From assembly GCF_000019165.1 (NCBI RefSeq), contig NC_010337.2, positions 599,501-663,500 on the forward strand: DNA of 64,000 nucleotides. The letters are read 5' to 3'. Below the pieces are notes generated by a model. It did no database searches. It was not told where the DNA came from and saw only the letters and a list, made by a program, of their open reading frames with translations. The DNA is from Heliomicrobium modesticaldum Ice1 (GTDB lineage Bacteria > Bacillota > Desulfitobacteriia > Heliobacteriales > Heliobacteriaceae). Below are positions 2,916 through 49,758 of the stretch, in pieces. How positions within the stretch are numbered: the stretch's first letter is position 1; every line of letters starts with the position of its first letter. The position numbers and the translations under genes were made by a program.

Positions 2916-3008
2916 TACCCCACCTTTCTTTCTAATGAGACTGGCTCAGATTGATTGCGGGAATGAAAAAGATTATATCCAGACACGGTTGGCCATGGCC
3001 ATCAGATT

Positions 3009-4096
3009 CGGTACACCCCCGCACACGCGGGGAACATCCAATAAGGGAAGACGGGGGTTTCTCGCTGCCTTACGGTACACCCCCGCGCACGCGGGGAACA
3101 TGGGAATGGGGTGACCTGTCTGCCGCCCAGTATGTCCGGTACACCCCCGCGCACGCGGGGAACATCTCAAAGTGCCCACCGTATCGTTCCGCTTCAGGCG
3201 GTACACCCCCGCGCACGCGGGGAACATGTTTGAGGAGGTTGTCGAGGTCAAGTGCAAATCGGTACACCCCCGCGCACGCGGGGAACATTACTGCTCCACC
3301 TCGGGCGTCAATCCTTGCGCTTCCGGTACACCCCCGCGCACGCGGGGAACATATAAATGGGCCTCATGAAGGATCGTTTAACCTCGGTACACCCCCGCGC
3401 ACGCGGGGAACATGGCAGTCCACTAACCACAGAGCATTCTGTCTTTACGGTACACCCCCGCGCACGCGGGGAACATTCCCGTCCAAACTTTCGGTCGAAT
3501 CCTACTTGCGGTACACCCCCGCGCACGCGGGGAACATGTTGCCGTTGAGAACAAGGTTGGCGAGGGCTTCCGGTACACCCCCGCGCACGCGGGGAACATG
3601 GACCCTTCCCTTCCGTCTCCTTGCCCTCCAGCGGTACACCCCCGCGCACGCGGGGAACATGCCGGGCCGGTGAATCGGCCGTTGCTGGATGTCGGTACAC
3701 CCCCGCGCACGCGGGGAACATGCGAACAACCGGGCTGAGGCGGGGTTTGAAGTCTACGGTACACCCCAGCGCACGCGGGGAACATCCGAAAGTCCCAAAA
3801 TCTACAACATCGACCTTCGGTACACCCCCGCGCACGCGGGGAACATTTCAAAGGGTAAATGGGCCGGCAAGCCACTACTCCGGTACACCCCCGCGCACGC
3901 GGGGAACATGATTATCCCGACAACCGTTCCGCCGGTTCCCGAGCGGTACACCCCCGCGCACGCGGGGAACATGCTGCTTTCCTTCCCCGGCCGCTAGCTT
4001 TGCGACGGTACACCCCCGCGCACGCGGGGAACATGGTACGAGACTTGTTCTCGACCTTCGACGAGGACGGTACACCCCCGCGCACGCGGGGAACAT
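3009..4096 (-). CRISPR. Type I-E CRISPR array, 18 repeats and 17 spacers
   Basis: Eighteen 29-base repeats start at 3009, 3073, 3137, 3199, 3260, 3324, 3385, 3448, 3509, 3571, 3632, 3693, 3757, 3818, 3881, 3944, 4006 and 4068. Read on the minus strand each repeat begins ATGTTCCCCGCG and ends GGGGGTGTACCG, the typical I-E form with a GC-rich palindrome. Spacers are 32 to 35 bases and all look different. Degenerate repeats are at 3009 (CACACG in the stem) and 3757. The variant end repeat at 3009 and the AT-rich flank beyond 4096 both say the leader is on the right and transcription runs leftwards. No cas gene is in the window. Confidence 0.97.
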
Positions 4097-4308
4097 ACTA
4101 GAAAAACCTAATAATGACGCGACTTCCTCTCGAAAATCCCCTTTCAGGTATCGGACTACCGCCTCACTATGTTGTTATAAAGTTCTTGATTTTCTCCCAA
4201 ATCTATTCGTTAAAGGCTGATAATTTCCTCCAATTTTTACACAAAACAAAACCATCGACTCTCACGTCGATGGCAAATCCTCAAGAGCTTCTAACCCTTT
4301 TCCCCCGA
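4097..4308 (-). promoter_or_regulatory. Probable CRISPR leader
   Basis: This AT-rich stretch lies between the newest repeat (4068-4096) and the stop codon of spoVR. Its composition contrasts with the G+C-rich genes around it, and it flanks the array end with conserved repeats, as leaders do. I could not pick a definite promoter. No gene fits. Confidence 0.6.
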
Positions 4309-8652: not shown

Positions 8653-10536
8653 ATCGAGTAGGAGGGGGTGATTAACCCCCGTCCTCTCACACCACCGTAC
8701 GTACCGTTCGGTATACGGCGGTTCATGCTGGTTGACGATGAGATTGGTATGTTTCGACTAAACTGACTAAGCCCTGTTCCCGCCAGTAGGCGAGGCCAAG
8801 GGCTTTATTCATTTGCGGGGTCAAGGACAGACGCCAATATCCTTTTCGTGAGCCGCTGATGTTGCATGCCCATTCCTCCGGGATCCCCAACGCCACTAAG
8901 TTTCGTCTTCGTGTCTTCGGGCGCTTCCATTGCTTGAGCAGGCACATCCGCAGTCGTCGGCGAAGCCACTCATCCAACTCTTTAAGTACGCTTGGCGTGT
9001 CAATGAGTCGAAAGTAGCCCATCCAGCCTTTCAGGTATTGGTTGAGGGTGACCAGTCGGTCCTCCATCGCAATGCTTCGGTTCCGCCCAGTGAACTGGCG
9101 GATCTTCTCTTTCACCCGTTTCACCGTTTGGGGGGCGAGCCGAATCTTTGCTGCCTTATGCCACGTAAATGAAAACCCCAGAAACTTTCGGTTCCAGGGT
9201 CGGTCGACTGCGCTTTTCTCCCAGTTGACCTGCAGTTTTAACCGCCCCTCCAGAAACTTTGCCATACCCTCCATCACTCGTTGCCCTGCCCGTCGACTGC
9301 GGACGTAGACGTTACAGTCGTCGGCGTACCGGCAGAAGCGATGTCCCCGGCTTTCCAGTGCCTTATCCAAATCATCCAGGATGATGTTCGCCAGCAAAGG
9401 GCTGAGTGGACCTCCCTGGGGTGTTCCTTCCTCGCTCTTCACACGAATCCCGTTGAGCATGACCCCGGCCTTGAGGTATTCTCGGATCAACTTCAAGATT
9501 CGTTTGTCCTTCACCTTGCGCGCTACGCGCGCCATGAGAATGTCGTGATTGACGCGATCAAAGAACTGGGCCAGGTCCATGTCAACCACCCATCGGTAGC
9601 CGTCGGCGATGTATTCCTTCGCTTTCTTCACCGCTTGGTGCGCACTCTTTCCCGGACGAAATCCGTAGCTGTTCGTGGAAAAGTCAGGGTCGAAGATCGG
9701 CATCAGGATCTGGTTCAGGGCCTGTTGGATCAGTCGATCGACGACAGTGGGAATGCCCAGCTTCCGTGTTCCGCCTTGGGGTTTGGGAATTTCAACCCGC
9801 CGGACCGGTTGCGGTCGATAGGTCCCCTCCAACAATTCCTGTTTAATGCGCGACCATTCCTCTTTTAGGTACGGGCGCAGGGATTCTAGCCCCATACCGT
9901 CGATTCCGGCCGCGCCTTTGTTGGCCATGACTCGCTTATACGCTTCCGTCATGTTCCCTCGTTCGACGACTTTCTCCATCAGATCATACGTCTCTTCGCG
10001 GGGTTGCTTCGCTTCTTGTGCCGGTAACGCGCTCGGCACTCCACCGGTCCCCTGCGGATTCACCGCTTCCTCCCGTTGGCAGTTCCCTTTCGGGATATTC
10101 GGCTGTCTCTGCGCGTCACGCGAACGCATCGTCGCTTCCCCTTCCATCATGTTCGGTCCTTCATCTGGCCGGACGTCGGGCCAGCCTACTATGACCTCTG
10201 CTGACTCCTGCCGGTTCAGCCACGCCTTTCGGCGTGGTTTCCCAAGTTACTTGGTCCCCCGGCAGGCCTCCCCGGGTAAGAACGTTGCCTTTCCCTCCAT
10301 CTACCCGCCCCATTTACTCTCGGCAGCCTTCGGTGACAAGGACTTCGCTTTGTTCGGCAAGCTCATCCAACTGCCGCTAGCCTCACCTGGGGTTCGTGGT
10401 CCTCGGGCCGGAGGTTTGCCGCTGGCTTCCTTCAGATTCCGCCTCGCGGCGGACACCCTTGCCTTAAGCTAACGCCTACTGCCACCTTCGGCGTTCGGGA
10501 CTTCCACCCTAGAGACAACGCCCATGCCGGGCGCAC
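8653..10536 (-). mobile_element. Group IIC intron inserted between glnH and glnM
   Basis: On the minus strand the 5' end is GTGCGCCCGGCATGGGCG at 10536, the standard start of bacterial group II introns. The 3' end near 8653 follows a domain V-like hairpin (GTATACCGAACGGTACG region, about 8694-8720) and a domain VI hairpin (GGGGGTTAATCACCCCC), then CTACTCGAT. It encodes one reverse transcriptase without an endonuclease domain. The insertion point lies four bases after a terminator hairpin (10541-10568), which is the known target preference of class C introns. The exact 3' base is uncertain by one or two. Confidence 0.85.
8723..10150 (-). CDS. ltrA: Group II intron reverse transcriptase/maturase
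   Basis: This 475-residue intron-encoded protein is the reverse transcriptase that splices and spreads the intron. Features in order: the RT0/RT1 region with YKRVMANKGAAGIDGM (about residue 70), GIPTVVDRLIQQAL, SYGFRPGKSAHQA, the first catalytic Asp in VVDMDLAQFFDRVNHD, TPQGGPLSPLLANI, the active-site YADD in CRYADDCNVYV, and FLGFSFTW. The group II maturase domain follows (YLKGWMGYFR, about residue 390). There is no HNH endonuclease domain at the end, as in class C. The reading frame is intact, so the intron may still be active. Confidence 0.95.
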   Translation of the reverse strand: MMEGEATMRSRDAQRQPNIPKGNCQREEAVNPQGTGGVPSALPAQEAKQPREETYDLMEKVVERGNMTEAYKRVMANKGAAGIDGMGLESLRPYLKEEWSRIKQELLEGTYRPQPVRRVEIPKPQGGTRKLGIPTVVDRLIQQALNQILMPIFDPDFSTNSYGFRPGKSAHQAVKKAKEYIADGYRWVVDMDLAQFFDRVNHDILMARVARKVKDKRILKLIREYLKAGVMLNGIRVKSEEGTPQGGPLSPLLANIILDDLDKALESRGHRFCRYADDCNVYVRSRRAGQRVMEGMAKFLEGRLKLQVNWEKSAVDRPWNRKFLGFSFTWHKAAKIRLAPQTVKRVKEKIRQFTGRNRSIAMEDRLVTLNQYLKGWMGYFRLIDTPSVLKELDEWLRRRLRMCLLKQWKRPKTRRRNLVALGIPEEWACNISGSRKGYWRLSLTPQMNKALGLAYWREQGLVSLVETYQSHRQPA

Positions 10537-39898: not shown

Positions 39899-40123
39899 AT
39901 GGACAAAGACCAGAGTATTGAAAAATGGTCATCAATGGATACCATAACCGACTACCTCGGTGTAAGCCGCGAAACAGTGCTGCAGTGGATTAATAACCGC
40001 AATATGCCCGCGCATAAGGTCGGGCGACTTTGGAAGTTCAAGATTTCCGAAGTTGACAAATGGATTCGTTCCGGCGGTGCAGCGGAGAATTTGTCAACAG
40101 AGGAGGCAAAGGACCGTGAGTAG
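39899..40123 (+). CDS. Small HTH DNA-binding protein (excisionase/MerR-like)
   Basis: The 74-residue protein has a winged-HTH of the excisionase type: MDTITDYLGVSRETVLQWIN, then NMPAHKVGRLWKFKISEVDKWI. This is the DNA-binding fold used by excisionases and by small regulators of restriction and defence operons. The ribosome binding site GGAGG lies at normal distance before the ATG. The stop overlaps the next gene's GTG region, so they are translationally coupled. It is likely the operon's regulator; an excisionase for the island is the alternative, though no integrase is in view. Confidence 0.75.
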   Translation: MDKDQSIEKWSSMDTITDYLGVSRETVLQWINNRNMPAHKVGRLWKFKISEVDKWIRSGGAAENLSTEEAKDRE

Positions 40124-41312
40124 GACAGCCGAAAGCTTTTCCAAGCCGAAACATAATAAGATCATGAATATCCTAGCTGAGGCTACTGGCGGCAAAAGCT
40201 ATAAAGCCCATAAGTATCCGATTGACTACGCTGACCGTCCATCGATCGATTACGGCGATAGTGAGATCATTTGGAAAAGAAGAGCCGAAACTACTCAACA
40301 CAGGACCTATATCAATCTATTAGGACTCAGCAAGAAGCTCGCCTCGCGCGACGACCAGATTCTAAGCTATTTCTTAGACGGTTCTCGTAGGGTTTTCAAG
40401 GTGGATGACATCGCGTATGTGCAATCCGGTGGCCGTAGCATCATTTACCCTGTGATCGCAGGACAGATCGGTGTCGGATGCTGCCACCGTGTTAATAAGA
40501 AAGTCGTTCCGGTCCAGTTAAAGCGCGAGTTTGTTTTGTCCATGCCGGATGTAGCTGATGCAGATGGGAAACCCGGCTTCTGGCCTGCCACGGCAAAGAA
40601 ATTAAGTGAGTGCGATGAATTGAAGAGATTGGGTATAGAGTTTGCCGCAATTTTGCCATATAAGACATCCAAGAACGATGATAAAAAGTTTGAGGATCGT
40701 GCAACGGCTTGTGTCCAGGACAGAATGATTGAAAGTGAGAAGAAACTAGTTGCTGACCTTGTGCGAGAAGGTAAGCTCAATCAGAACAATTATCTGGTTA
40801 AAGATGGCTCACTGGAGTACAGACCAACCAAGGAAGATAAAGCCGATAAGAGAAGGTACCAGACATTCAAAAATAACTACAATTGGGTGATCGGTGTGTC
40901 AAAGAATTTCAATCCGGAAGTCTGCGAGGATATCAATGGCAAGCCCAATCCAGGATTCATCGCTGATTTGCCTCTTTACCACCGTACCCCTGTGGTAGAG
41001 TACGAGAACCCGATGCTGGGCGACATCAAGTTTGCTGTTTGGTACATCCGTCTGCGGGATAAGGAAAAGACCCGAACCCCATTTGACGGAGTCCTAAAGG
41101 TCGAGAAAATCCTCGTGACGGAAGAAGAAACCGAAGTCGGCATTGACAGCGAACAAGTAGATACGCTAAGCGCTTACCTCATAAACGAGCGCAATCCTGT
41201 TTGTTATGGCTCAGATCTCCGATGGGCTAACCACATCTACCCAATATACCTGACTGAGTCTTTTGTAAAATCGCGTTACCTAAGCGCTGAAAGCTTTTTG
41301 CATCTATTTTAA
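40116..41312 (+). CDS. NurA-like nuclease
   Basis: The 398-residue protein looks like a NurA-domain nuclease, the partner of HerA. The motifs are in family order: a first metal Asp in FLDGSRR (D88), a second in LVKDGSLEY (D230), then WVIGVSKNF with Lys 263, and a C-terminal HIYPIYLTESFVKS. NurA is a 5'-3' exonuclease/endonuclease that works inside the HerA ring during end resection, and similar pairs occur in defence islands. The start is GTG at 40116: AGGAGG lies nine bases before it, and the longer frame from 40053 runs inside the HTH gene. The next gene is a HerA-like ATPase, 14 bases away. Confidence 0.7.
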   Translation: MSRTAESFSKPKHNKIMNILAEATGGKSYKAHKYPIDYADRPSIDYGDSEIIWKRRAETTQHRTYINLLGLSKKLASRDDQILSYFLDGSRRVFKVDDIAYVQSGGRSIIYPVIAGQIGVGCCHRVNKKVVPVQLKREFVLSMPDVADADGKPGFWPATAKKLSECDELKRLGIEFAAILPYKTSKNDDKKFEDRATACVQDRMIESEKKLVADLVREGKLNQNNYLVKDGSLEYRPTKEDKADKRRYQTFKNNYNWVIGVSKNFNPEVCEDINGKPNPGFIADLPLYHRTPVVEYENPMLGDIKFAVWYIRLRDKEKTRTPFDGVLKVEKILVTEEETEVGIDSEQVDTLSAYLINERNPVCYGSDLRWANHIYPIYLTESFVKSRYLSAESFLHLF

Positions 41313-41326
41313 GGAGGATCAAACAT

Positions 41327-43039
41327 ATGAGCAAATTAATTGGTCGCGTCCTGGCTACTGAGAAAAACCCTACTACCATGGATGAGTTTAACTTCTGGAC
41401 GAATTCGGACTTGAAACTCCACGCGTTCGATATCGTAAAGGTTGTGCATATAGAGGGCTCTTATACGTTCGGTGTAATCGAGAACATATCGCACATCACG
41501 GATGCCCAGAGTTTCTTGACGAATTTCATCTCCAGTGACTTTGGCGATGTTGATATAGATGAGCCAACTTTGCGTGTTGGTATGAATTATGCCAAGGCTA
41601 AGGTTTCCTTCAACAGCAAAAACCTGTACACCCCTGTACATAACAACGCCAAGGTATATCTCGCTACAGCTGATGAGATTACGACAGCTCTCGGGCTGAA
41701 AGTGATTCAAAACCCTCTGGTATGCGGTTCGCTAAAGATGTATGAAGGCACTTCTGAGGAGGTCACCCTCCCTGTGTTTCTGAATTCAAAGTTCCTCCTG
41801 GGGCCGGAAGGAGCACATCTCAATATTTCTGGTATATCCGGGCTTGCGTCGAAGACTTCTTACGCAATGTTCTTGATGAAAGCCATACAAGATCAGTACC
41901 TGAAAGCCGATACGGACGATAGTGTGGCTTTTGTCATTTTCAATGTTAAAGGAAAAGACCTAATGGCAATAGACCGTCCAAATGACTTCTCAACCGACAA
42001 CCCTGGCGAGAAGGAGCGGGTTCTTGCAGAATACAAAGCGCTGGGTTTGTCTACAGAACCGTTCAAGAATGTAAAGTACTACATTCCATACACGAGTAAT
42101 ACATCGGCCAAACAGAGTACATATCTATCCATAGACGACGTAAAGTCATATACGGAGTATGGTCAATTAAAGAAGTTTAAGTACTCATATGAGGATGATA
42201 AAGAGAGCCTTGAAATGTTATTTGCCGATATTGACGACCCGCAGCAGACCATGGAAGCGATCATTAGCAAAATCATTGACGATAACGACCAAGATTTCGG
42301 CGGTGGGCGTGTCAATACGTGGACTGAATTCAGAGAGAAAGTCGATGAACTCTCCCAGCGGTCGCAGCCAGCGGGGCGCAGTAGCCAACAACGGGTTTCC
42401 AATGAAATCTCGGTGCTCAGCTGGCGGAAGTTCAAGCGCATTATCAATAAAGCCACCAAGAACGATGACATGTTTGCCAATCGTCCTGATCCCAGCAAGC
42501 ATGAATGCCGCCTAGCTGACGAACTAAAAAAGATACGTGAGAATGAAGTGTACGTAATTGATATCGCCAAACTACCTGAAGACAAGCAGGCATTTGTCTT
42601 TGGTGACGCCGTCCGGACCATTTACAACTTGAAGTTGGGAGAGTATGACGCCGAGTCCGGAGTTGAGCCACCGTCACGAATTATTATTTTCATCGATGAG
42701 CTTAACAAGTACGCGTCTAAGGAGATACCAAAGTCGTCGCCTATCCTACGGGAAATCCTTGACATTACGGAGCGCGGTCGTTCTCTGGGGGTTGTCCTCT
42801 TCGCGGCAGAGCAATTCCGTTCTGCTATCCATCCGCGCGTGACCGGCAACTGCGCTACACACGCGTACGGCAGAACCAACTCTATAGAGACATCGACGGC
42901 TGATTATAGAAGCCTTCCGAGCACATACCAGAATATGCTGACGCGCCTCGAGCAAGGTGATTATCTGGTTCAGAACCCCATCTTCCGCTCCCTTTTGAAG
43001 ATCCGGTTCCCCAAGCCCATTTACAAGCAGTTCAAGTAA
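41327..43039 (+). CDS. HerA-like AAA+ ATPase
   Basis: The 570-residue protein has an N-terminal HAS-barrel-like part (MSKLIGRVLATEKNPTTMDE, LHAFDIVKVVHIEG) and a HerA/FtsK-type ATPase core. The P-loop is unusual: GISGLASKTS at residues 169-178, with Ser in place of the Gly normally before Lys. Walker B is RIIIFIDELNKYA (D457, E458). The motor end has RSLGVVLFAAEQFRSAIHPRV and NCATHAYGRTN, as in HerA, where ring subunits share an Arg finger. HerA hexamers pump DNA into NurA. The upstream NurA-like protein supports this role. Confidence 0.8.
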   Translation: MSKLIGRVLATEKNPTTMDEFNFWTNSDLKLHAFDIVKVVHIEGSYTFGVIENISHITDAQSFLTNFISSDFGDVDIDEPTLRVGMNYAKAKVSFNSKNLYTPVHNNAKVYLATADEITTALGLKVIQNPLVCGSLKMYEGTSEEVTLPVFLNSKFLLGPEGAHLNISGISGLASKTSYAMFLMKAIQDQYLKADTDDSVAFVIFNVKGKDLMAIDRPNDFSTDNPGEKERVLAEYKALGLSTEPFKNVKYYIPYTSNTSAKQSTYLSIDDVKSYTEYGQLKKFKYSYEDDKESLEMLFADIDDPQQTMEAIISKIIDDNDQDFGGGRVNTWTEFREKVDELSQRSQPAGRSSQQRVSNEISVLSWRKFKRIINKATKNDDMFANRPDPSKHECRLADELKKIRENEVYVIDIAKLPEDKQAFVFGDAVRTIYNLKLGEYDAESGVEPPSRIIIFIDELNKYASKEIPKSSPILREILDITERGRSLGVVLFAAEQFRSAIHPRVTGNCATHAYGRTNSIETSTADYRSLPSTYQNMLTRLEQGDYLVQNPIFRSLLKIRFPKPIYKQFK

Positions 43040-43058
43040 ACCGAGGGGATTGAGAGAT

Positions 43059-44630
43059 ATGAAAGACTACGTATTTGGCGCGAACATCCTTGAAAACCTT
43101 ACAACAGGAATGTACCAGGACTCCAAGGTAATCTACCGCGAGTACATTCAGAACGCCTGTGATCAGATCGATAAAGCCGTAAAAGATGAGATTTTGAAAC
43201 AGGATGAAGGCACCATTAAGATATGGCTAGATCGTGATCAGCGCACCATTGTCATTGAAGACAATGCCACGGGTATTCCTGCCGCCTCTTTCCAACAAAC
43301 GCTAGGAAATATTGCTGACTCCGACAAGAAAATCGGCGAAGACAAAGGATTCAGGGGTATCGGTAGGCTGTGCGGCCTTGCGTATTGTAAAGAACTTATT
43401 TTCATATCGTCAGCCAAAGGTGAGGACACTGTATCTTTAATGGTATGCGATGCCAAGAAGATGCGGGGGCTTATAGACGAGAACACGCGTGGCAAGAAGC
43501 ACACTGCAAACGAAGTGCTGAATGCCATCAATCGTTTTGAACAAAAAAAGACAAACGATATTGATTCGCACTTCTTTCGGGTGGAGTTGATCGATATCAA
43601 CCCAGAGAACACTGACCTACTCGATTTTCAACAGGTCAAGGACTATTTGTCGTTCGTCGCTCCGGTTCCTTACCAGAGTAGCTTTTATTACCGAACCGAC
43701 GTTTACAAGCATGCTCAGGAACTCGGTGTTAAAATTGACGAATATAATATAACACTTAATGGGGAGCCGATATTCAAGAAATATACAACTATACTGAAGG
43801 ACTCATCAACGGGTACAAAGTATGACGATATTTTCGGTGTCCACTTCCAGGACTTCTATAAAAACGGAGAATTGTTCGCGTGGATGTGGGTCGGTGTATC
43901 GAGGTTCCAGAAAGCTATCCCGAAGATCAATCAGATGCGCGGTCTACGATTGCGTAAAGAAAACATCCAGATTGGTGGTGAGGACGCACTACAGAAGCTA
44001 TTCAAAGAGGACCGTGGCAACAGCTATTTTATCGGCGAGGTTTTCGCTGTGAACAAGGATTTGATCCCCAATTCACAGCGCGATTATTTCAATGAGAATC
44101 CTGCCAGAGCTTATTTCGAGCTTGAGCTGCGAAGATACTTCAATGAAGAGCTCCGTAAAATCTACTACACCGGCTCCACTATTAACAGCTCATACAAGAA
44201 AATTGATGCATACGAAAAAAAGAATACCGAGTTCAAAGAAAAAGATAAAGCAGGCGTCTTTGTCGATAAGGAGCATCGCGAACGCGAGCTAAAGGTCGTT
44301 CTTGAGTCAAAGAAGGAAGCGGAGAACGCACTGGAAAAAATCGATAAAATAAAAGACAAGGCCGATGGACTGATGCAAAAAGTCATCCAACGGATTGAAG
44401 TTGAGCGCCCTAAACCGGTAATTGCGGTAGTGGTGCCCCCTATAAAACCGCCGAAAGATGACGAAGAGGAGTCTGAAAAAAGCGGAATGTTTCGTCGTAC
44501 AGACAGGCTTTCACAATATAACAAGGCAGAGCGCAAGCTTATTTCAAAGATATTTAGCATCATTACTTCGGTAACTGACAGCAAAACTGCTGAGATGATT
44601 ATTAGCAAAATCGAGGAAGGTCTTCAATGA
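43059..44630 (+). CDS. GHKL (Hsp90/MutL-type) ATPase
   Basis: The 523-residue protein starts with a Bergerat-fold ATPase. The N-box is YREYIQNACDQID (E28, N32, D35), motif 2 is IEDNATGIP (D68, G72), and the lid is KGFRGIGRLCGL (G97-G102). A middle region follows, with an Hsp90/MutL-like GVSRFQKAIPKINQMRGLRLRKENI, then a charged coiled coil at about residues 385-445 and a short C-terminal helical part. Start at the ATG 43059, ten bases after GAGGGG. It lies between the HerA-like and radical SAM genes and overlaps the latter by four bases. MORC and MutL relatives clamp DNA, so it may be a clamp or switch; this is inferred. Confidence 0.75.
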   Translation: MKDYVFGANILENLTTGMYQDSKVIYREYIQNACDQIDKAVKDEILKQDEGTIKIWLDRDQRTIVIEDNATGIPAASFQQTLGNIADSDKKIGEDKGFRGIGRLCGLAYCKELIFISSAKGEDTVSLMVCDAKKMRGLIDENTRGKKHTANEVLNAINRFEQKKTNDIDSHFFRVELIDINPENTDLLDFQQVKDYLSFVAPVPYQSSFYYRTDVYKHAQELGVKIDEYNITLNGEPIFKKYTTILKDSSTGTKYDDIFGVHFQDFYKNGELFAWMWVGVSRFQKAIPKINQMRGLRLRKENIQIGGEDALQKLFKEDRGNSYFIGEVFAVNKDLIPNSQRDYFNENPARAYFELELRRYFNEELRKIYYTGSTINSSYKKIDAYEKKNTEFKEKDKAGVFVDKEHRERELKVVLESKKEAENALEKIDKIKDKADGLMQKVIQRIEVERPKPVIAVVVPPIKPPKDDEEESEKSGMFRRTDRLSQYNKAERKLISKIFSIITSVTDSKTAEMIISKIEEGLQ

Positions 44631-46432
44631 ACCAAAAGATACTATTGATTGAACCAAATTACAAAAACAAATATCCGCCCATGGGCCTCATGAAGTTGGC
44701 TACCTATTACCGCAACCGAGGCGATGATGTCCGTTTTTTTAAAGGCGATCTCAAAGTGTTTGCAGCCAAGCTGTTGTGCGAAGAGTTTCTGGCGGAGGTG
44801 AAAGACCCTAAGCTGGGAAAGTACGTACCCAAGTTCATCGAGCATATTAAGACCGGCAAATTCGCTCCGCTCGACACGATTCCTAATTTCAGGAATAGTG
44901 AACAGGATGTGATCCTAAAGGAATACCGCCTTCGTTATAGAAACGGCATGTTCCCGCAGTTTGATGTTATCGGGATTACAACCCTGTTCACTTTTTACTG
45001 GCGGGAAACGATCGACACGATCAACTATGCTAAAAAGTTCTGCTCGGAAGATGGAAGGATCATCGTGGGGGGAATCGCCGCGAGCATTTTACATGATAAG
45101 ATCTTGCAAGAAACCGGGATTGACCCTTTATGTGGCCTCCTGAACAAACCAGGCATGCTGGATGCCGATAATGAATACATCATCGACGAACTGCCGTTGG
45201 ATTACTCTATCCTGGAGGAGATTGACTATCAGTATCCGGTTAATAACGCTTATCTAGCGTACATGACGCGAGGTTGCCATCGCAAGTGTGCTTTTTGTGC
45301 TGTCCCTAGCCTGGAGCCAGAGTACAAGGATTATATAGGGTTGAAGGAACAAATCAGGCTGGCCACTGAACGCTTTGGTCCACAAAAGAACCTACTGCTC
45401 ATGGACAACAACGTTTTTGCCTCGAAGCATTTTGAAAAAATCATCGATGAAATCAAAGAGTGTGGGTTCGAACGAGGTGCTACATACATCCCAGAGAGTG
45501 AATACGACATCGCCATGAAGAACATCCGCGAAGGATATAACGTGCGGGCCTATACTAGGAAGCTCATCAAGCTTTATGACCGTATTTCCGATAGACTTTC
45601 GGAGGCAGAGCAGGCAGATTTCTATCTGGAACGCGAAAAACGTAACCTACTCTATGCGGAAGTGGCAAGCCCGGATGCGATCATCGAGTTTGATGAAAAA
45701 GCGCGCCCACTCTATGAGAAATACTTTAAACCTATCAAGCGTATGCGTATTATCGACTTTAACCAAGGCGTAGACGCTCGTCTTGTAACCGAGAAGAAAA
45801 TGAAGAAACTAGCCGAGATCAACATCCGCCCGCTTCGGATCGCCTTCGACCACTACTCCATGAAAGACACTTATGAGGCAGCAATACGTACAGCAGTAAA
45901 GCACGGTATCACGGATCTGTCTAATTATCTGCTTTATAACTTTGAGGACCAACCTGACGATCTGTATTACCGCATGAAGATCAATATCGACTTGTGCGAT
46001 GAGCTCGGCGTGACAATTTACTCCTTTCCAATGAAGTTCCACCCCATTGACGATCCTAAGTACTTCCAAAACCGCGACTACATAGGCAAACATTGGAACC
46101 GTAAGTTCATTCGAGCGGTACAGGCTGTTCTCAATTCAACGAAGGGTAAGATAGGCCGCGGGAAGTCCTTCTTTGAGGAGGCCTTCGGAAAAGATATTGA
46201 CGAGTTCCATAAAATTCTATGGATGCCTGAAGCATTCATCATCCACCGCTTCAAGTACAAAGATAATCTAACTGCTGAGTGGTGGGAGAAATTCAATAGC
46301 CTTGATGAGATGCAGTTGAACAGACTCAAAGCAATCGTAGCAGCAAATGTGTTTGATGAAAATATAGCAACTGGTGATCCATCTGTAGACGAGGTGTTGA
46401 GGTACTATCAAGTAAGGCGTGACCCTAAATGA
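44627..46432 (+). CDS. Radical SAM protein with B12-binding-like N-terminus
   Basis: The 601-residue protein has the radical SAM cluster motif CHRKCAFC with Cys 217, 221 and 224. The N-terminal 190 residues read ILLIEPNYKNKYPPMGLMKL and VIGITTLFTFYWRETIDTIN, the fold seen in cobalamin-binding radical SAM enzymes, though the cobalamin His motif DxHxxG is not evident. After the core, residues 300-370 are a charged insertion. Such enzymes make methylated, thiolated or ring-modified products. The gene overlaps the GHKL gene (ATGA) and is the last large gene of the operon. Its substrate is unknown: DNA, RNA, a nucleotide or a partner protein are all possible. Confidence 0.8.
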   Translation: MNQKILLIEPNYKNKYPPMGLMKLATYYRNRGDDVRFFKGDLKVFAAKLLCEEFLAEVKDPKLGKYVPKFIEHIKTGKFAPLDTIPNFRNSEQDVILKEYRLRYRNGMFPQFDVIGITTLFTFYWRETIDTINYAKKFCSEDGRIIVGGIAASILHDKILQETGIDPLCGLLNKPGMLDADNEYIIDELPLDYSILEEIDYQYPVNNAYLAYMTRGCHRKCAFCAVPSLEPEYKDYIGLKEQIRLATERFGPQKNLLLMDNNVFASKHFEKIIDEIKECGFERGATYIPESEYDIAMKNIREGYNVRAYTRKLIKLYDRISDRLSEAEQADFYLEREKRNLLYAEVASPDAIIEFDEKARPLYEKYFKPIKRMRIIDFNQGVDARLVTEKKMKKLAEINIRPLRIAFDHYSMKDTYEAAIRTAVKHGITDLSNYLLYNFEDQPDDLYYRMKINIDLCDELGVTIYSFPMKFHPIDDPKYFQNRDYIGKHWNRKFIRAVQAVLNSTKGKIGRGKSFFEEAFGKDIDEFHKILWMPEAFIIHRFKYKDNLTAEWWEKFNSLDEMQLNRLKAIVAANVFDENIATGDPSVDEVLRYYQVRRDPK

Positions 46433-46830: not shown

Positions 46831-47183
46831 TGGTGGAGGCGGCGGGAGTCGAACCCAGCGTCCGAAGAAGAGCCAACAAAGGCATTTACGAGCGTATTCT
46901 GTCGTTTTAGATTTCGCCATCCTTCCGCACAACAGACAAAGCGTTGGTCAGGCTATCTCGATGAGTCTCGCCCGGACCTCCGAGAATTGGTCCGAGCCAG
47001 CTCCCTTAAATGACCCCTTACATCCTCACCGAGAGCACAGAGGAGAAGAGGTTAGACTGCAATTAAGCAGCTAAAGCGTAGTTTTCTTCGGCAATTAAAG
47101 CCTTCCGCCCTTTTTACGGTCCTGGCGGCAACCCGGCTCGCGTCCCAGGCCAACCCGTTCCCCGTCGAAACCATTACGCCCCC
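46831..47183 (-). ncRNA. ssrA: tmRNA
   Basis: On the minus strand the 5' end is GGGGGCGTAATGGTTTCGAC and the 3' end is GTTCGACTCCCGCCGCCTCC followed by ACCA. The ends pair as the tRNA-like acceptor (GGGGGCG with CGCCTCC), and the T loop GTTCGA is present. The tag codons read GCC GAA GAA AAC TAC GCT TTA GCT GCT TAA, giving AEENYALAA. tmRNA rescues stalled ribosomes together with SmpB, encoded 3.7 kb to the right. The accessory island lies directly beyond its 3' end. Confidence 0.97.
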
Positions 47184-48702: not shown

Positions 48703-48987
48703 TCCTGCGCTCGAAAATGGCAGCCGGTGATTCAGCAGTCTACATCTTCCTTTTGCTGTCACCGCCTCACCTCATCTTATTCGCTCGATAACGGCGGCAA
48801 GGTCATTTTATGCCTGAGCATTTTTCCTTACAGCCTATCATGCCGCCCATTTCTGCAAACCATCTCTCCGCTTCAACGGATCCGCTGGAATTCATTCCAT
48901 AATCGCGTACAGGTCTCGCCTCCCGGCGGGACCTTTTTTACTGTATTGGCATATGATGGAGCGAACATGAGGAGGTGCTCAATCGTC

Positions 48988-49758
48988 ATGGATCGGAAAC
49001 CACCGACCGGCTATCCGAAAGTGCCCTACACGCCGATAGCACCCGAGCGGATTATACCACCGCCGCCGCCACCACCGCCGCCACCGCCGCCACCGCCACC
49101 GCCGCCACCGCCGCCACCACCGCCACCGCCACCGCCGCCACCACCGCCACCGCCGCCGCCGCCACCGCCACCGCCGCCACGCCCCTGTCCGCCGCCACCG
49201 CCGCCACCACCGCCACCGCCACCGCCGCCACCACCGCCACCGCCACCGCCGCCACCACCGCCACCGCCGCCGCCGCCACCGCCACCGCCGCCACGCCCCT
49301 GTCCGCCGCCACCGCCGGCAAGACCCTGTCCGCCGCCTTGTCCGCCGAAGCACGAATGTGGGCTTCCTGAGCCCTGCCCGCAGGTCGAGCCGATTGCAGG
49401 CGAACCGATGCCCATCCCCCCTTGCGCGCCCATGCCGATGCCCATGCCGATGGAACCGATAGGGCGCCAACCGCTGCCGATACCGATGCCCATGCCCCCC
49501 TGCGCACCCATGCCTGTCGAGCCCGTCGCTCGTGAACCTATGGAACACCGGCCGGCACCCTGTGACCCATGCGAGTCATACGACCCTGCCATCACGGTAC
49601 CGCCGGAGATGATGAAACCCGGTTGGAAACTGGCCCAGGCCTTTGTGCCTTACCAGCAGTATTGCCCGCCCTTCTACCCGCCTGCAGAAGCGCTCTGCAA
49701 GGGAACGATTTTCCCCGGTCTCTACCGCCCCTACTGCCACGACCGGCACCGTCGATGA
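48988..49758 (+). CDS. cotJA: CotJA-like spore coat protein with long polyproline runs
   Basis: The C-terminal 50 residues match CotJA (MKPGWKLAQAFVPYQQYCPP, EALCKGTIFPGLYRPY). In front lies a very unusual region: runs of about 41 and 35 consecutive prolines (49057-49179 and 49189-49293), separated and followed by RPCPPP-type units, then Met/Pro repeats (MPMPMPMEP). Normal CotJA has about 80 residues; this has 256. The start is ATG 48988, ten bases after AGGAGGTG. CotJA, B and C are made together in the mother cell and go into the spore coat. The three genes here are tightly spaced. Confidence 0.85.
   Translation: MDRKPPTGYPKVPYTPIAPERIIPPPPPPPPPPPPPPPPPPPPPPPPPPPPPPPPPPPPPPPPPRPCPPPPPPPPPPPPPPPPPPPPPPPPPPPPPPPPPPPRPCPPPPPARPCPPPCPPKHECGLPEPCPQVEPIAGEPMPIPPCAPMPMPMPMEPIGRQPLPIPMPMPPCAPMPVEPVAREPMEHRPAPCDPCESYDPAITVPPEMMKPGWKLAQAFVPYQQYCPPFYPPAEALCKGTIFPGLYRPYCHDRHRR

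Follow-up and report, generated by a model that had tools for sequence, protein, structure and literature searches.

Operon beside ssrA and its proteins

In this study, which was based on a 64,000-nt stretch of Heliomicrobium modesticaldum Ice1 (NC_010337.2, positions 599,501 to 663,500; hereafter the window, whose own coordinates are used for its features), we analysed an operon that encodes a NurA-family nuclease, a HerA translocase, a GHKL ATPase and a radical S-adenosylmethionine (rSAM) enzyme, and that begins with a gene for a small helix-turn-helix (HTH) regulator. A first-pass annotation of the window had described five coupled plus-strand genes, and this arrangement was confirmed, with refined starts and translational coupling. 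The GTG start of the NurA gene at 40116 lies 9 nt past its Shine-Dalgarno sequence and produces an 8-nt overlap with the stop of the HTH gene; gaps of 14 nt and 19 nt separate NurA from HerA and HerA from GHKL, respectively, while the GHKL and rSAM genes overlap at an ATGA. The features of the locus are as follows:

39899..40123, plus strand: small HTH regulator, excisionase/MerR-like and related to MAD1; accessory
40100..40106, plus strand: Shine-Dalgarno sequence GAGGAGG of the NurA gene, read from the sequence
40116..41312, plus strand: NurA-family nuclease, 398 aa, GTG start (fold match and invariant residues)
41327..43039, plus strand: HerA translocase of the Deinococcus type, 570 aa (profile match to D. 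radiodurans HerA)
43059..44630, plus strand: GHKL ATPase, 523 aa, ATG start, Hsp90/paraMORC-like architecture (motifs, HATPase_c_3, HtpG)
44627..46432, plus strand: rSAM enzyme, 601 aa, predicted class-B/cobalamin-type two-domain fold (model fold and cysteines)
46831..47183, minus strand: ssrA (transfer-messenger RNA), with the cassette on its 3' side

The nuclease was only weakly recognised by sequence profile (PF09376 at E 0.022, below the gathering score); its AlphaFold2 model (pLDDT 87.6) had DrNurA (7f6d_G, E 3.1e-12) and SsoNurA (2ygk, E 1.4e-8) as the top Foldseek matches, and residues D88, D230 and K263, which correspond to D72, D214 and K247 of A3, were invariant in the family. HerA had no match in the Pfam search. 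The HerA profile A5 aligned with D. radiodurans HerA (7f6d_B) at E 1.8e-50 in two stretches that reach both ends, and a SGISGxAxKTS motif is common to the two proteins; the window HerA carries a variant Walker A (GISGLASKTS) and the Walker B FIDELNK, and it also matched the PADLOC family mad8 at 1.2e-9. The earlier assignments of both proteins therefore hold, that of NurA by its fold and that of HerA by its profile, and the pair combines the homology to HerA-type hexameric ATPases, the NurA fold and the conserved active-site acidic residues that define HerA-NurA.

The third large protein has the N-box (E28/N32/D35), the G1 DNxxG motif (D68-N69-G72) and the G2 glycine box (GFRGIG) of the GHKL superfamily (Hsp90/MutL/MORC), as well as R341 on the S5 side. 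In the family alignment E28 and N32 were invariant and D35 was nearly so. The protein matched HATPase_c_3 at 1.9e-8, and profile A6 matched HtpG at 6.6e-10, which makes Hsp90/HtpG its nearest relatives. GHKL relatives are ATP-gated clamps or chaperones.

For the rSAM enzyme, the matches to PF04055 (4.5e-6) and to the B12-binding family (2.4e-5) were both below the gathering scores. Its AlphaFold2 model (pLDDT 90.2) was closest in VIA-align to AprD4 (Z 15.0), MgmA (14.9), TsrM (13.9), MTAB and MiaB (both 13.7) and OxsB (13.3). Across 45 sequences, the only invariant cysteines were C217, C221 and C224, which form a single CxxxCxxC cluster, and the lone C457. Together with the N-terminal B12-type Rossmann domain of the model, this cluster points to a class B (cobalamin-type) enzyme. 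To our knowledge, AprD4, the top fold match, is not cobalamin dependent, so the class-B fold does not imply that cobalamin is bound. A methylthiotransferase (MiaB/RimO), whose sulfur insertion could have offered a tie to phosphorothioation, was rejected because there is no second N-terminal cysteine triad. The motif residues that had been named for NurA, GHKL and rSAM are thus among the most conserved columns of their families, with the slight reservation for D35 of GHKL.

The HTH protein matched PF12728 at 5.9e-12 in Pfam and NF047737 (MAD1) with 63 bits, which is under the cut-off of 80. Such a MAD1/excisionase-like HTH was found only in the window and at a few other loci; elsewhere the HTH before NurA is small and belongs to a different family, or is missing. 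The regulator, which had initially been counted as part of the system, was rejected as a fixed fifth member because it is replaced or missing among the relatives, and the core consists of the four large genes. The cassette ends 0.4 kb from ssrA, which is on the opposite strand, and insertion sequence (IS) copies lie directly upstream; both the position beside ssrA and the mobile-element neighbours agree with what had been reported. Apart from IS copies, a search for flanking direct repeats between 26.5 and 47.2 kb gave a single chance repeat, so that it does not show integration at ssrA.

Spread, genomic setting and related systems

When species-level genome contigs were scanned with a profile from the rSAM alignment, at least 558 relatives were confirmed, and the best 80 of these together with two viral contigs made up a set of 82 loci. 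All four large genes were present in identical order at 63 of the 82 loci, which represent no fewer than ten bacterial phyla plus one methanogen; this bears out the expectation that they would occur together elsewhere, and most of the other loci were cut by contig ends. Where each gene was present as a single intact copy (53 loci), the median intergenic distances were 12, 13 and -1 nt. The pairwise distance matrices of the four proteins were correlated (r 0.85-0.92, permutation p 0.001), to which shared host descent contributes, and the rSAM tree required 13 phylum changes compared with the minimum possible of 10. In this tree the window rSAM clusters with proteins of Bacillota, of Bacteroidota and of an archaeon of the Methanomicrobiales; some of these come from contigs of metagenome-assembled genomes (MAGs), with two identical pairs that suggest mis-binning. 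Together, the four large genes make up a single mobile unit that has moved between phyla and that, besides a methanogen, is carried by bacteria of the gut, the rumen and the environment. Cultured carriers include Desulfosporosinus strains (loci L033 and L038). The rSAM profile found nothing in the other eight searched members of the host family and was matched in 9 of 83 genomes of the host class, while the cassette HerA occurred in 30 of 189 genomes of the order to which a Selenomonadaceae MAG belongs. Judged by these 30 genomes and the number of rSAM relatives, the cassette is common, yet it is undescribed in the catalogues and literature searched. Neither the 'phage' record MT836743 nor most of the viral contigs gave proof that phages carry the window-type (type A) cassette.

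The proposed defence-island setting was supported by the neighbouring genes. The 150 cassette-neighbour proteins matched 206 PADLOC families at E 1e-10, compared with 47 for a control of 134 proteins taken from arbitrary genome regions in that phylum, where most of those listed were models of one protein; because families rather than proteins were counted and the control was unmatched gene for gene, this is an enrichment in kind and not a precise ratio. The neighbour families include type I and type IV restriction, Argonaute (pAgo), AbiEi (AbiE), AriA (PARIS), Old, PsyrT and DolB. The operon itself corresponded to no named system in Pfam, NCBIfam, PADLOC 2.0 or PHROGs, and no description of the four-gene set was found in a literature search that covered few subscription-journal papers and hardly any preprints, so that this absence is not proof. 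Within PADLOC 2.0, NCBIfam and the literature searched, the set is thus undescribed, as had been supposed.

We searched 398 genomes drawn evenly from the phylum with the NurA and rSAM profiles. NurA was found in 11 of the 398 genomes, and HerA adjoined it in all 11; three of these pairs stand with GHKL-rSAM and eight with a Type IIG-like DNA methyltransferase of about 1,090 aa, mostly accompanied by a second DNA methyltransferase. The Type IIG-like protein of locus L178 scored 1,211 bits in PADLOC, and the L179 copy is broken. These eight loci (L178-L185, e.g., L178:3740-11137) look like a second undescribed NurA-HerA system, in which the pair shares an operon with the methyltransferase; at L181:1-1538(-) and L183:13937-16001 there is in addition DUF3800 or something similar, along with a distinct radical-SAM protein of the B12 type.

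The rSAM profile was matched in six of the 398 genomes, i.e., the three with NurA-HerA-GHKL and three with a Pbe module (G098, G364 and G234; loci L186-L188), where PbeA, a PbeC/DndD-like protein and a dnd_assoc_4-like protein are followed by rSAM. In L187 the matches reached E 3.8e-218 for PbeA and 2e-188 for the PbeC/DndD-like protein, and DndC was found nowhere in the three genomes. In a phosphorothioate-based antiviral system, PbeABCD serves as the effector module (PMC6459918). A further arrangement was seen on alphaproteobacterial plasmids, in which rSAM overlaps a DGQHR gene whose product scores above the Pfam cut-off for DndB and has a PADLOC match to DpdB. GHKL comes next, and these loci often have a PIN-GHKL pair or a DpdE/ZorD-like SNF2 helicase with ParB-like proteins. 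At L111 and L112, rSAM adjoins PD-Lambda-5_A-like genes. A DNA-mark enzyme or its partner is therefore a recurring neighbour or replacement of rSAM in three settings.

Two further observations concern relatives of the rSAM enzyme. On the prophage-like contigs L123 (8342-11362), L124 (8312-11386) and L027, an rSAM relative lies two genes from a Cas7/type IV CRISPR-like protein, as judged by eye. In L008 (Marinitoga camini virus 1), a short relative is convergent to the virus's own HerA and NurA genes.

The cassette shares single components with several described systems. With HerA-NurA of Deinococcus and archaea it has in common the full-length HerA homology, the NurA fold and the adjacency of the genes, whereas the window pair is in an operon with GHKL and rSAM, is horizontally mobile and resides in defence islands. 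The link to DndCDEA-PbeABCD (CxC-DndE) is the rSAM family that follows PbeA, PbeC and a DndE-like protein in the three sampled genomes; however, the window type contains no Pbe or Dnd protein, and the alternative marks described for CxC-DndE systems come from recruited cytosine methylases, not from rSAM (PMC10853773). Membership in Dnd/Pbe was rejected because none of the five window proteins matched DndC, DndD, DndE, PbeA or PbeC; proteins of this set occur only in the variants L186-L188, from which DndC is absent. The likeness to Dpd, which places 7-deazaguanine in DNA, comes from the alphaproteobacterial relatives, where a DndB/DpdB-like gene, and in many cases the SNF2 helicase, accompanies rSAM. 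In these relatives no tRNA-guanine transglycosylase (TGT/DpdA) was seen and rSAM holds a neighbouring position, whereas the window type is without DpdB; having no match to DpdA or DpdB in the window operon, and a DpdB-like gene only in the plasmid relatives, we rejected membership in Dpd as well. The resemblance to MADS is limited to the HTH and to HerA (the MAD1 and mad8 matches above), both weak or under the cut-off, and MAD2 (the methyltransferase), MAD5 (the specificity subunit) and all other MADS proteins of the MAD3-MAD7 range and beyond are missing from the operon, so that this membership was also rejected.

The neighbourhoods described for MORC/paraMORC restriction (Iyer et al. 2008, PMC2292703) are mobile and modification-based and tie a GHKL+S5 ATPase to nucleases, and the window GHKL ATPase likewise has a mobile, nuclease-linked setting; HerA, NurA and radical SAM are unmentioned in that work, and the type A operon has no superfamily 2 (SF2) helicase, while some of the variants from alphaproteobacteria and viral contigs do have SNF2 or DEAD helicases. 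BREX-related capture (BRC) and HerA/FtsK capture systems also join a HerA/FtsK translocase to nucleases, in BRC with a DNA-modifying TGT (PMC12839542, PMC10853773), but the HerA partners differ (PglZ, Orc/Cdc6) and their texts, as searched, contained no rSAM, GHKL or NurA of this kind. The cassette is close in kind to modification-based immunity and HerA capture systems, and the combination itself is absent from the catalogues searched.

Proposed mode of action and alternatives

We consider it an even chance that the cassette is a mobile restriction-modification-like (R-M) system against foreign DNA, with rSAM as the writer, GHKL in a licensing role and HerA-NurA as the cutter. The HerA hexamer would pump DNA into NurA and thus form a DNA-translocating nuclease, and the Hsp90-like GHKL protein would use ATP to work as a clamp or a switch, licensing the cutter and coupling recognition to action. 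The rSAM enzyme would place a covalent mark on host DNA, and DNA would be judged by the presence or absence of this mark; the cutter could either attack unmarked DNA, as in R-M, or require the mark, as for PbeABCD. The antiviral role, DNA as the rSAM substrate, the chemistry of the mark and the role of GHKL are what we infer here. A model of this kind, in which an rSAM mark is sensed by GHKL and HerA-NurA cuts, had been put forward in the first-pass annotation, and it has gained support from the comparison of loci, in which rSAM repeatedly takes the position of DNA-marking enzymes. More tentatively, and somewhat short of an even chance, rSAM may be the writer of an undescribed DNA self-mark and an exchangeable module of at least three immunity architectures (NurA-HerA-GHKL, Pbe/CxC-DndE and DndB/DpdB-like). 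If it does write such a mark, radical chemistry would join methylation, phosphorothioation and 7-deazaguanine as a means of marking self-DNA, the Pbe-type loci without phosphorothioation genes would be explained, and the enzyme would represent a new class of writer.

The retention of the genes was followed in a second set of 30 loci that were found through HerA, 25 of which lay clear of contig ends. In the 18 of these with NurA, HerA (split in one) and GHKL all retained, rSAM was always full-length. Among the seven loci with a broken or lost GHKL, rSAM was intact in two, lacked its first ~60 residues in three, was absent in one and was broken with everything else in one. This pattern is predicted by an addiction rule, i.e., that the cutter needs the writer. 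Moreover, rSAM is kept as an orphan in three genomes that have no HerA (L044, L058 and L069), a survival that fits a harmless writer. As a separate observation, an HNH endonuclease of ~265 aa replaces most of GHKL, together with the first ~60 rSAM residues, or lies near NurA-HerA where GHKL and rSAM were lost (L244:4166-4963, L250:2251-3048, L255:6293-7249, L064:9162-10001 and L253:9347-10144(-)); its gene spans the junction in the three loci with the N-truncated rSAM.

Several points weigh against the proposed system. The retention pattern is weak evidence because the loci are few and related, the events are non-independent and GHKL and rSAM are adjacent, so that one deletion can remove both. 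NurA-HerA was kept in L253 after rSAM and GHKL had been lost, and in L244, L250 and L255 alongside the N-truncated rSAM and a broken GHKL. GHKL is not beside rSAM in L186 and is hence not obligatory everywhere, and PbeAC genes are known to occur alone, with no modification genes (PMC6459918). The substrates of the nearest rSAM folds are small molecules, peptides and proteins (AprD4, TsrM, MgmA) or tRNA (MiaB), and none is DNA. Additionally, many of the loci are MAG contigs, the first locus set was found via rSAM and is biased towards intact rSAM, and gene association cannot tell a writer from a sensor or from an RNA or protein modifier.

It is unlikely, though the best placed of the alternatives, that the cassette serves defence while rSAM modifies RNA or protein, such as tRNA or its own partner, with GHKL coupling the modified state to HerA-NurA. 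MiaB, which acts on tRNA, MTAB and the protein glutamine methylase MgmA are indeed among its nearest folds, and the overlapping GHKL and rSAM genes suggest a physical pair; however, rSAM accompanies PbeA/PbeC, DndB/DpdB and a NurA-HerA pair that is otherwise joined to DNA methyltransferases, and its orphan genes persist partnerless. In another view, which we regard as quite improbable, the product of rSAM would be an antiviral nucleotide or signal molecule of the viperin or CBASS kind and would set off GHKL and HerA-NurA. Enzymes of the rSAM class that modify nucleotides are known in immunity, and viperin-like structures matched the barrel with Z 9-10, but the two-domain class-B fold with its B12-type N-terminal domain fits far better (Z 15). 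The partners are DNA-handling and DNA-mark proteins rather than signal receptors, and a signal would serve no purpose where an orphan has no effectors, although a nucleotide that is itself antiviral still could.

A mark on DNA could also be written for the opposite purpose, i.e., to activate the cutter or to let the effector engage, which we hold to be unlikely. Type IIG/NurA-HerA loci would be expected to follow the logic of protection by methylation, which speaks against such a mark-dependent cutter. Its precedent is PbeABCD, which requires phosphorothioation for activity and is non-toxic without it (PMC6459918), and rSAM is partnered with PbeA/PbeC in L186-L188. The existence of NurA-HerA loci without a complete rSAM (L253, L244) would suit it too, whereas the constant presence of rSAM where NurA, HerA and GHKL are intact is what a protective writer would give, although it is compatible with both. 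Finally, it is very improbable that the genes form an accessory operon for DNA repair or end resection outside defence, with a MutL-like GHKL and an rSAM that reverses damage. End resection is a known role of HerA-NurA, spore photoproduct lyase is a DNA-repairing rSAM enzyme and the window HerA is related over its full length to D. radiodurans HerA, but the patchy presence, inter-phylum transfer, defence-island neighbours, changing partners and frequent decay are unlike a housekeeping set.

Other features of the window

Three features of the window are located away from the operon. A CRISPR array at 2990-4097 has at least 18 repeats of ~29 nt (CGGTACACCCCCGCGCACGCGGGGAACAT) with a spacing of 61-64 nt. 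A group II intron (Rfam D1D4-1 and D1D4-3) with a reverse transcriptase lies on the minus strand at 8723-10453. An open frame at 48727-49758 has a very long polyproline stretch, and the opposite strand is glycine-rich.

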